A DNA stretch of 64,000 nt from Agromyces fucosus (GTDB lineage Bacteria > Actinomycetota > Actinomycetes > Actinomycetales > Microbacteriaceae). The position numbers and the translations under genes were made by a program. Below, piece by piece: positions 31,693 through 45,402 of the stretch; position 1 is the stretch's first letter, and each line of letters starts with the position of its first letter. Under the pieces are notes generated by a model. That model made no database searches, was not told where the DNA came from, and saw only the letters and a program-made list of their open reading frames with translations. The stretch is from contig NZ_SDPO01000004.1 of assembly GCF_004134865.1 (NCBI RefSeq), positions 1 to 64,000 on the forward strand. Direction: 5' to 3'.

Positions 31693-32127
31693 TCACGGAG
31701 CGAGCGGCAGCGCGAGACGCTGCCCGGGTTCGACGACCGCGTCATCGAGGCCGTTGAGCCGGACGATCTCGGCGATGACCTCGCGCACGTCGCCGCTCGG
31801 GTCGATCGCCTCGGCGATCGCCCAGAGCGAATCCCCCTGACCGACCGTGACGTATTCGAAGGTCGCTCCCGCGGAGTCGACGTCGGCGGCGGCGGCGCCC
31901 GAGCCGAGGACGAGCACGAGGACCCAGACCACGAGCGGAAGCGCTGCGAGCATGGTGAAGACGACGCGACCGCGGCGGGTCAGGCGAAGGCGGGTGCGCA
32001 CCACGGCGCTCGGCGCATGCGCCACGCCGGTCTGCGTGTACACGCCCTGAGCTCGCACACTCGTGTCGAAGTCGCGCGGGAGGGCCCGCGAGGCCTGGAA
32101 GCCGGTCGTTGCGATCGCTGCGCTCAT
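31693..32127 (-). CDS. Membrane-anchored LysM protein divergent from lexA
   Basis: This 144-residue protein has an N-terminal cytoplasmic part of about 60 residues. One membrane span follows ([20 protein letters not shown], ~residues 65-85), then a single LysM domain ([15 protein letters not shown]...[18 protein letters not shown]) that binds peptidoglycan. The start is ATG 32127. The gene is divergent from lexA with an SOS box 66 bp upstream of its start. This arrangement parallels Bacillus yneA, an SOS-induced LysM division inhibitor next to lexA. The division-inhibitor role is inference. Confidence 0.8.
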
Positions 32128-32192
32128 GTCACACCTCCTGTAGGAGTCGCATCCGGCCCTCGGCCGGGAGGACCGGATGCGAAACTCTGTTC

Positions 32193-32206
32193 CGAACATA
32201 CATTCG
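32193..32206. promoter_or_regulatory. LexA (SOS) box, LysM side
   Basis: CGAACATACATTCG matches the Gram-positive/actinobacterial SOS box CGAAC-N4-GTTCG with one substitution. It is 66 bp upstream of the LysM start and 176 bp upstream of the preferred lexA start, so it probably controls the LysM gene. Confidence 0.75.
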
Positions 32207-32267
32207 AATTTCGAACAATGCAAGGATCGAACTCCGGAAACCCGGGGAACCGGATCTCCGACACACT

Positions 32268-32281
32268 CGAACAGATGTTTG
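32268..32281. promoter_or_regulatory. LexA (SOS) box, lexA side
   Basis: CGAACAGATGTTTG matches CGAAC-N4-GTTCG except for one base in the right half. It lies 101 bp upstream of the preferred lexA start and fits LexA autorepression. Confidence 0.72.
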
Positions 32282-32381
32282 CCGCACGCACGCGAGACGG
32301 ATACAGTTTCGAATGTCTGGAAGACAGTCGACCAGACACCACCGACATCCGGCCTCGCGGCCGCTACGAGGGGCGGAGACG

Positions 32382-33071
32382 TTGAGCACCGACATCGACG
32401 ACGTGCAGGCAGCAGGCAGGCCTCGCCGCCGCAAGAGTCTGAGCGCGAAGCAGATCGCCATCCTCGAGATGATCCAGCGCTCGGTGTCGAGCCGCGGCTA
32501 CCCGCCGAGCATGCGCGAGATCGGCGACGCCGTCGGGCTCTCCTCGTTGTCGAGCGTGACCCACCAGCTGAACCAGCTCGAGCTCGCCGGTTACCTCCGA
32601 CGCGATCCCAACCGCCCTCGCGCGCTCGAGGTGCTCATCGAGCTGCCCGGCGTGACCGATCGGCCTGCCACGCAGTCCGACCCCACGCCGGTGGGCGATG
32701 CGGCGATGGTGCCGCTCGTCGGGCGCATCGCCGCCGGTGTCCCCATCACCGCCGAGCAGCAGGTCGACGAGGTCTTCCCCCTCCCCCGGCAGTTGGTCGG
32801 CAAGGGCGAGCTCTTCATGCTGAAGGTCGTCGGCGACTCCATGATCGACGCCGCGATCTGCGACGGCGACTGGGTCGTCGTGCGGTCGCAGCGCACCGCC
32901 GAGAACGGCGAGATCGTCGCCGCGATGCTCGACGGCGAGGCCACCGTCAAGGTGTTCCGCCAGCGCGACGGGCACACCTGGCTGCTCCCCCGCAACAGTG
33001 CGTTCGAGCCGATCGTCGGTGACCACGCAGAGGTGCTCGGCAAGATCGTCGCGGTGCTGCGCTCGGTCTGA
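32382..33071 (+). CDS. lexA: SOS repressor LexA
   Basis: LexA represses SOS genes and self-cleaves when stimulated by RecA. The N-terminal winged helix ([38 protein letters not shown]) is followed by the Ala-Gly cleavage site in GRIAAGVP, the catalytic Ser in VVGDSMIDA, and the catalytic Lys in [10 protein letters not shown] choose TTG 32382 (229 residues). An ATG at 32313 would add 23 residues rich in codons rare in this genome (AGA, TCT, CTA), without family similarity. Confidence 0.93.
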
Positions 33072-44068: not shown

Positions 44069-45133
<1,065 letters not shown>

Positions 45134-45357
45134 GGGTGGGGCTCCTTCTTGCTCGATTGCGGCTGCCTCTAGGCTGTCGTTCCACGTTGCGGGCACTGAC
45201 CGACGGGTGCTGGCTCGCGGTGTCTTGCGACAAGGCGTTTGCGGTGTGTTCCGTTGCATCGACCGTATGGTCGGCCACCGACATCCGACGCCGATCTCGA
45301 CCCGGATGTGGACAGCTGCACTGGAGCTCCTGCTGTTGAGGAGCCTACCCCAGCTCC

Positions 45358-45371
45358 CGAACGCATGTTCG
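45358..45371. promoter_or_regulatory. Consensus LexA (SOS) box of recA
   Basis: CGAACGCATGTTCG is a full match to CGAAC-N4-GTTCG, about 10 bp upstream of a plausible -10 element of recA. LexA binding here would block RNA polymerase. Confidence 0.85.
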
Positions 45372-45388: not shown

Positions 45389-45402
45389 CGAACACGCCTT
45401 CG
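45389..45402. promoter_or_regulatory. Second, weaker SOS-box-like site upstream of recA
   Basis: CGAACACGCCTTCG differs from the consensus by one base in the right half. Its centre is 31 bp (about three helical turns) from the first box, so cooperative LexA binding is possible. Confidence 0.5.

Follow-up and report, generated by a model that had tools for sequence, protein, structure and literature searches.

Why should the gene of a small LysM protein lie back to back with lexA? The question is raised by a stretch of DNA from the soil bacterium Agromyces fucosus (contig NZ_SDPO01000004.1), which is 64,000 nucleotides long and is called the window below. Agromyces belongs to the Microbacteriaceae, order Micrococcales; "the genus", "the family", "the order" and "the class" stand here for Agromyces, Microbacteriaceae, Micrococcales and Actinomycetes, respectively. 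The LysM gene (144 amino acids, minus strand, 31693–32127) and lexA (plus strand, 32382–33071) are divergent, and the gap between them is 254 bp. Our answer is that the LysM gene is probably a DNA-damage checkpoint gene, coding for a lexA-divergent protein of the ChiZ/YneA kind that would halt septation during DNA repair. This reading is based on the class-wide position of the gene next to lexA, the design of its product (LysM and one helix), a conserved signature in that protein, LexA boxes and a PafBC element in the gap, and the fact that inhibitors of this kind are already known. Induction by DNA damage and arrest of division by the LysM protein are what we infer from these sequence features.

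A LysM gene divergent from lexA

The product of lexA is a clear equivalog (TIGR00498, E 5.2e-69; Pfam LexA_DNA_bind and Peptidase_S24). The first-pass annotation of this DNA, made from the letters, had described two divergent genes with an SOS box on each side and had assigned the LysM protein a single transmembrane span and a LysM domain on the outside. Genes and boxes are found as described, each box matching at 9 of 10 defined positions (starting at 32193 and 32268), and the architecture of the protein is supported by prediction as set out below. In a class sample of 80 lexA loci, hand-chosen across families from 165 genomes with lexA, a homologue divergent from lexA is present in 69 when the search is started from lexA. 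As to the exceptions, 11 of the 80 have no LysM match, L127 ends at a contig edge and in L122 the homologue is 1,334 bp away. L194 is without lexA. A search started from the protein gave a match in 57 of 60 relatives and in 118 of 120 Microbacteriaceae genomes. Where a stretch held both genes, our divergence rule was satisfied in 155 of 159 cases; the four failures are L122 and three loci (L071, L156, L176) in which the homologue is on the divergent strand all the same and the profile alignment extended past the lexA start. The homologue is missing from two genomes of the sample that we take to be Streptomyces-like (L109, L110). This agrees with a remark in the accessible text of PMC9380542 that Streptomyces has no clear homologues of known SOS division regulators.

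The LysM protein is predicted to have a single membrane span and an outside LysM domain. In a Pfam search at E up to 1, LysM was the only domain matched (E 5.6e-8) and no catalytic domain was found. The AlphaFold2 model, made with an input of 48 homologues, has an N-terminus of low confidence, a single long helix at residues 51–79 and a LysM fold at residues 90–141, the latter with a predicted local distance difference test score (pLDDT) of about 95. When this model was submitted to Foldseek the top matches were LysM domains (best E 2.7e-3, probability 1.00), several of them from wall enzymes, and a sequence search against solved structures also returned LysM proteins.

The strongly conserved part of the protein beyond LysM is LRLTRRGR, residues 47–54, just N-terminal to the membrane helix. 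Most of 160 homologues have this juxtamembrane motif, with T30 kept in 87%, R32 in 90%, G33 in 92% and R34 in 87% of the sequences (155–157 per column), and conservation of its core is about that of the LysM core in the same alignment. Note that this set was not chosen by the motif but includes 30 close Agromyces relatives; in the 48-protein alignment, which was chosen by the pattern LT.RGR, invariance of the motif is a product of selection. For YneA of Bacillus subtilis the accessible text of PMC13396833 reports that the protein loses both its localisation and its toxicity when residues in the early part of the membrane segment are changed to alanine, and that the membrane helix binds FtsW. 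Because of these properties of YneA we infer, by analogy, that LRLTRRGR is a good candidate for docking on the divisome. Divergence is fast among division inhibitors of the ChiZ/YneA kind, and LRLTRRGR is, besides LysM, a second conserved feature of this class-wide protein family, so that mutations in it could test the docking hypothesis directly. The idea that LTRRGR marks many membrane proteins in this genome was rejected: a degenerate DNA pattern gave 5 genome matches against 3 in the reversed control, one of the five being the LysM gene itself (the reading frames of the other four were not read).

LexA boxes and a candidate PafBC-type promoter in the common gap

LexA box 1 (32193–32206, CGAACATACATTCG) is on the LysM side of the gap and LexA box 2 (32268–32281, CGAACAGATGTTTG) on the lexA side; the consensus used for scoring was CGAACnnnnGTTCG, with 10 defined positions. 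Sites with at most one mismatch number 641 in the 4.01 Mb genome. The chance expectation is about 0.04 boxes in the 254-bp gap, and about 8e-4 for two by chance (Poisson estimate). A single 9/10 match is weak evidence; position and conservation raise both boxes above chance. In its loose form (CGAA-N5-GTTTG, within 330 bp upstream of lexA) the lexA-side box is found in 69 of the 79 loci from the family and in 81 of the 90 from elsewhere; the strict form (TCGAACnnnYGTTTG) is present in 51 of those 79 and 78 of those 90. Outside the family, 59 of 79 loci have a site of 10/10 (34 loci) or 9/10 (25 loci) at 25–110 bp from the lexA-side box.

Both boxes coincide with predicted promoter elements. 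The predicted LysM −10 (TATGTT, 32195–32200, minus strand; relatives mostly have TATATT, TATGTT or TACATT) lies within box 1, 17 bp from a predicted −35 (TTGCAT, 32218–32223, minus strand), and the LexA-controlled LysM transcript is predicted to start at approximately 32188, 7 nt after the −10. Box 2 overlaps the −35 of the predicted lexA promoter (TTGCCG-17-TACAGT, 32279–32307, plus strand), with a start at about 32314. This predicted start is surrounded by the block GGATACAGTTTCGAATGT (32300–32317), which has a TTCGAA at the start and is found in 30 of 30 Agromyces loci. Outside Microbacteriaceae (e.g. L089, L090, L095 and L116) two LexA boxes often abut on the LysM side with 16-bp spacing, and in some of these loci the second box overlaps the predicted LysM −10.

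In the lexA leader there is a candidate PafBC-type promoter that faces the LysM gene (32326–32347, minus strand). It is made up of TGTCGGTG (32340–32347), an eight-nucleotide spacer with a TG extended −10, and the hexamer TCGACT (32326–32331). Scored against TGTCRGTG-N8-TAnnnT, the site has 8 of 8 core positions; in the hexamer, which is correctly spaced, T1 and T6 are kept and A2 is lost. It shares core and spacing with the mycobacterial PafBC promoters (TTGTCRGTG-N8-TAnnnT) and differs from them in the missing A2, the TG extended −10 and its face-to-face position with lexA.

Conservation of this site is oriented. Of 79 family loci, 72 have TGTCRGTG on the strand facing the LysM gene; both on the opposite strand and in the reversed control the count is 0 of 79. 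Outside the family the corresponding numbers are 29, 0 and 3 of 90. Of 69 class loci, 26 match a longer PafBC pattern at 10 or more of its 11 positions on the strand facing the LysM gene and 3 do so on the opposite one; among shuffles the share is 0.5%. Across 74 filtered family sites the columns T14, G15, T17 and T22 are kept in 67, 72, 73 and 74, respectively, and together these near-fixed columns form an extended −10 (TGnTnnnnT) whose spacing is exactly that of PafBC promoters. Selection had fixed the first nine bases of these sites, eight through the pattern and the ninth, a G, through the filter, and this ninth base is not evidence. Without filtering there are 94 sites in 72 family loci, second sites in lexA codons included, with T17 in 73, T22 in 77 and G15 in 87 of 94.

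It could be argued that TGTCRGTG is no PafBC promoter and belongs to the lexA 5′ leader as a conserved RNA or DNA element acting on lexA. Its distance from the lexA box is rigid (75–80 bp in 58 of 71 family loci), its −10 is off-consensus, and many Agromyces have the 8-mer in lexA codons as well, all of which would suit such an element. On the other hand, the distance to the lexA start varies widely, T17 and T22 are nearly fixed at the exact PafBC spacing together with the TG extended −10, and the motif has the LysM-facing orientation only. Outside the order, moreover, 16 of 18 sites are upstream of the lexA box, on its far side, and still face the LysM gene. We consider an element serving lexA unlikely and prefer a PafBC-type promoter directed at the LysM gene. 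In many Agromyces (loci L001–L012, L024 and L029) a second TGTCGGTG, also facing the LysM gene, was noticed among the first codons of lexA.

In the Agromyces window genome a PafB-like gene and a PafC gene stand side by side near tatC, and weaker matches to the PafC helix-turn-helix occur elsewhere. Genome-wide, the full PafBC pattern with at most one mismatch gives 65 matches (34 plus 31) against 15 in the reversed control (5 plus 10). The motif stands 28–29 nt ahead of the start codons of uvrA (perfect), uvrB, ruvA and ligA (one mismatch each), and a perfect motif is 87 nt ahead of a recA start. Motif-to-start distances were taken for 15 hand-chosen matches of the 65, 14 of which gave data, the start being that of the longest open reading frame (ORF) 25–330 nt after the motif, a rule that favours near starts; in 9 of the 14 this ORF starts 28–29 nt after the motif. 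Such spacing suggests that PafBC-driven messages are leaderless, and from it the transcript start would be placed about 28 nt after the first T of the motif. The minus-strand PafBC start would then be at about 32319, adjoining the predicted lexA start on the opposite strand, and the two promoters would overlap face-to-face. The rigid distance between PafBC core and lexA box fits this overlap.

For comparison, recA in the window (ORF 44069–45259) has upstream of it a perfect PafBC promoter (TGTCGGTGGCCGACCATACGGT, 45262–45283, minus strand), a perfect LexA box (CGAACGCATGTTCG, 45358–45371) and a second, 9/10 box (45389–45402). As in mycobacteria, recA seems to be a point where the LexA and PafBC damage pathways come together. 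At uvrA (C1:497228–497291) the distance from the perfect PafBC motif to the start codon is 28 nt, and about 30 bp further upstream there is a perfect LexA box. In Mycobacterium tuberculosis, according to the accessible parts of PMC8151990, the reported target of the PafBC motif next to lexA is the rv2719c operon and not lexA; the supplement legend there names the rv2719c operon and the discussion prints Rv2019c/Rv2018c/Rv2017c. The mycobacterial PafBC is activated by single-stranded DNA, as stated in the accessible text of PMC11804915. The PafBC input reported in mycobacteria seems to recur here in other actinobacteria, facing the inhibitor gene and differing in position. At the mycobacterial-looking loci L077–L079 the PafBC site is on the far side of the lexA box and has a TAnnnT −10, whereas in the window locus it is in the lexA leader, over the predicted lexA promoter, and has the TG extended −10. 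In Microbacteriaceae the site mostly overlaps the predicted lexA promoter; with this layout, the repressor of one damage pathway could be silenced by the other pathway.

A covarying hairpin in the LysM leader

A hairpin of 15 bp with the loop CCGGCC (32147–32182, minus strand) lies near the 5′ end of the predicted LexA-controlled LysM transcript, about 6 nt from its start. From 79 family loci 77 leaders were obtained, of which 65 had the loop anchor and 60 were distinct and were aligned; with two loci added by the covariance model the hairpin is present in 67 of 79, and in 12 of 79 it is absent or shortened. In the 60 distinct sequences 96.6% of cells pair and both-side changes are found in 13 of 15 pairs. 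There are 89 double-change cells, as compared to 17.4 (standard deviation 3.4) in shuffles and 7–14 in slid structures.

The covariance model finds one strong site in the Agromyces window genome. With the threshold set at E 1e-6, 53 of 80 Microbacteriaceae genomes have a single site each, always upstream of the LysM gene and on the same strand, and 30 of these 53 genomes contributed no sequence to the model. A search of 78 genomes outside Microbacteriaceae at the same threshold, with stricter filters, found no hairpin. A further match in the window genome (C2:310583, 31.4 bits, E 7.2e-5) was rejected as a second copy, being terminator-like and past the ends of two opposing ORFs, and a third is the opposite strand of the main site. 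Searches against Rfam 15 gave no family match for the lexA–LysM gap and 20 loci at E up to 1, and chance matches only (best E 2.6) for the leader alone to E 10.

An alternative is that the inverted repeat is a DNA palindrome bound by a regulator, and not RNA. It is near-perfect, it stands beside a promoter, and its spacing to the LexA box is identical in 65 of 65 anchored leaders, as might be expected of an operator. Yet 59 of 893 pair cells are G-U or U-G on the LysM-sense strand at the high overall level of pairing, and these point to RNA because the same cells are A-C mismatches on the other strand; furthermore, the loop CUC-CCGGCC-GAG is nearly fixed and the stem varies. A palindrome acting as DNA is improbable in our estimate, and the pattern of changes argues for a well-supported candidate structured RNA without a family in Rfam 15. 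A candidate RNA called lysM-Actino, reportedly described by Weinberg and others in 2017, is by its name a structured RNA upstream of an actinobacterial LysM gene; the hairpin may be the same element. A small second hairpin (CTCCTACAGGAG, 32135–32146) would cover the Shine-Dalgarno sequence of the LysM gene; it is found in the Agromyces window genome and a few relatives and is not conserved family-wide.

Kinship with known inhibitors and the checkpoint reading

The lexA-divergent, one-span and mostly LysM-bearing layout is a recognised Gram-positive pattern of SOS division inhibitors, as described in the accessible text of PMC6851548. The first-pass annotation had likened design and location to those of Bacillus YneA, and this pattern bears the likeness out. 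It had further called the protein an analogous or distant relative of YneA with low similarity beyond LysM. The second point was right; the first was so in broad terms, although the closest kin appear to be actinobacterial and had not been named, namely ChiZ/Rv2719c of Mycobacterium, with DivS at the same place. ChiZ/Rv2719c shares with the Agromyces protein its actinobacterial origin, divergence from lexA, the single span and the outside LysM; it also has the PafBC motif in the common gap, reported in the available parts of PMC8151990 to act on the LysM gene. Apart from the different promoter position, the leader hairpin separates the two, as it was found in Microbacteriaceae only in the searches made, and so does LRLTRRGR, which the mycobacterial-looking homologues L078 and L084 do not have. 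The profile of the LysM protein family reaches the mycobacterial-looking loci L077–L080 and L084 with low scores (28–43 bits).

YneA shares the SOS-type gene beside lexA and one span plus LysM; its membrane helix is reported to dock on FtsW and its LysM to bind glycan (PMC13396833, accessible text). Unlike YneA, the Agromyces protein has a long N-terminal tail and the LRLTRRGR motif, and similarity between the two is confined to LysM. That this similarity extends across the helix was considered and rejected: LysM alone gives 38.6 bits in the NCBIfam YneA model (NF010723), against 42.2 bits for the whole protein, and the membrane piece had no match to that model. At E up to 0.01 the YneA model is matched by 48 of 48 aligned family members, and the next family by 12 of the 48. 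Below its cut-off the YneA model is unspecific, since at E up to 1 it finds matches in 12 of 14 well-known control genomes, above the cut-off in one. DivS of Corynebacterium glutamicum and SosA of Staphylococcus aureus, to which a damage-induced division block belongs, share the place by lexA and the single span and are without LysM, unlike the Agromyces protein. A lexA-divergent one-span inhibitor, usually with LysM, is a known kind, and the Agromyces gene is a member of it by place and design, not a YneA equivalog. The new part appears to be the control arrangement, with two damage regulators and a leader hairpin. In the open-access literature, of which coverage was limited and in part, we found no description of a face-to-face PafBC site, the LRLTRRGR signature or the leader hairpin.

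The following mechanism would be consistent with these features. Bound at the LysM −10 (box 1) and at the lexA −35 (box 2), LexA would repress both genes, and RecA-driven cleavage of LexA would release both. PafBC activated by single-stranded DNA would allow sigma-A polymerase to initiate within the lexA leader; the polymerase would then cross the lexA promoter leftward and transcribe the LysM gene. Going by motif, orientation and conservation, this would be a second, LexA-independent input. The hairpin at the 5′ end of the transcript from the LexA promoter, a structure backed by covariation, might tune stability or translation of the message. The LysM protein would sit N-in in the membrane, LRLTRRGR and the helix would dock on the divisome (on FtsW, by analogy with YneA), and LysM would grip septal glycan, so that synthesis of the septal wall is blocked. 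We can go one step further, more tentatively: the lexA–LysM gap of Microbacteriaceae would be a three-input damage switch, in which PafBC firing would produce the inhibitor and at the same time prevent new LexA from being made, and the family-specific hairpin with its nearly fixed CCGGCC loop would be a new RNA class gating a division checkpoint. This extension is possible and we hold it as doubtful. If it is true, the face-to-face PafBC promoter couples the damage response sensing single-stranded DNA with that of LexA.

The LysM protein could instead be a damage-induced protein of wall remodelling or anchoring, or a hydrolase as claimed for ChiZ, with an effect on division that is secondary. 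LysM is a peptidoglycan-binding domain, ChiZ is termed a cell wall hydrolase in the available text of a review (PMC3989709), and some of the fold matches come from wall enzymes. The model, on the other hand, consists of a helix and a LysM fold with no catalytic domain, and the conserved juxtamembrane LRLTRRGR suggests docking over catalysis. A primary role in the wall is therefore rather improbable, and we keep to a checkpoint gene as the preferred explanation.

Several observations weigh against the checkpoint gene or the control proposed for it. Some of the sampled lexA neighbours are without LysM, and the mycobacterial-looking L078 and L084 lack LTRRGR. The LysM of ChiZ appears dispensable according to the same review (PMC3989709, accessible text), contrary to the YneA result (PMC13396833). 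The YneA score stays below the curated cut-off of 60 bits (43.3 bits in the genome search) and comes almost wholly from LysM. The PafBC hexamer TCGACT is without the A of a TAnnnT −10, and an A at this position is found in just 2 of 74 filtered family sites. More than one TGTCRGTG is present in 19 of 72 family loci, and in many Agromyces one copy is in the first lexA codons; the 8-mer alone is therefore no proof. Other Micrococcales families are mixed, with 12 motifs in 22 loci, 6 of them downstream and 5 upstream of the lexA box and 1 further off. In 27 of 80 family genomes no hairpin was found at E up to 1e-6, where stricter filters applied and weak sites may be lost. The best LysM-side box in the family scores 8/10 in 46 of 75 loci, typically CGAATATATCTTCG, as against 9/10 in 21, 10/10 in 2 and lower in 6 (approximate counts, the best site being at times a neighbouring 8/10 site 13 bp off). 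The box in the window genome is among the better ones, and the LysM-side box looks like an old LexA site that was weakened in most Microbacteriaceae and is comparatively good here. Finally, the explanation as a whole is built on sequence and prediction, from which expression and phenotype are extrapolated. As for the SOS control by LexA that had been proposed at first, the 9/10 boxes stand, but LexA alone is probably not the whole story, as the PafBC-type promoter and the leader hairpin had been missed and box 1 is degenerate in most of the family. That the gene is an ordinary LysM neighbour with no role in damage is very improbable: LysM is a common domain and single box matches are frequent, as the 641 genomic sites indicate, but adjacency is class-wide and was found from both genes, and the boxes and the PafBC element are conserved.

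In three of the 80 sampled loci (L081, L082 and L141, Nocardia-like by our inference) the LexA boxes are kept and, judged by eye, the divergent protein has one hydrophobic stretch and no LysM. These one-span proteins may be DivS-like.

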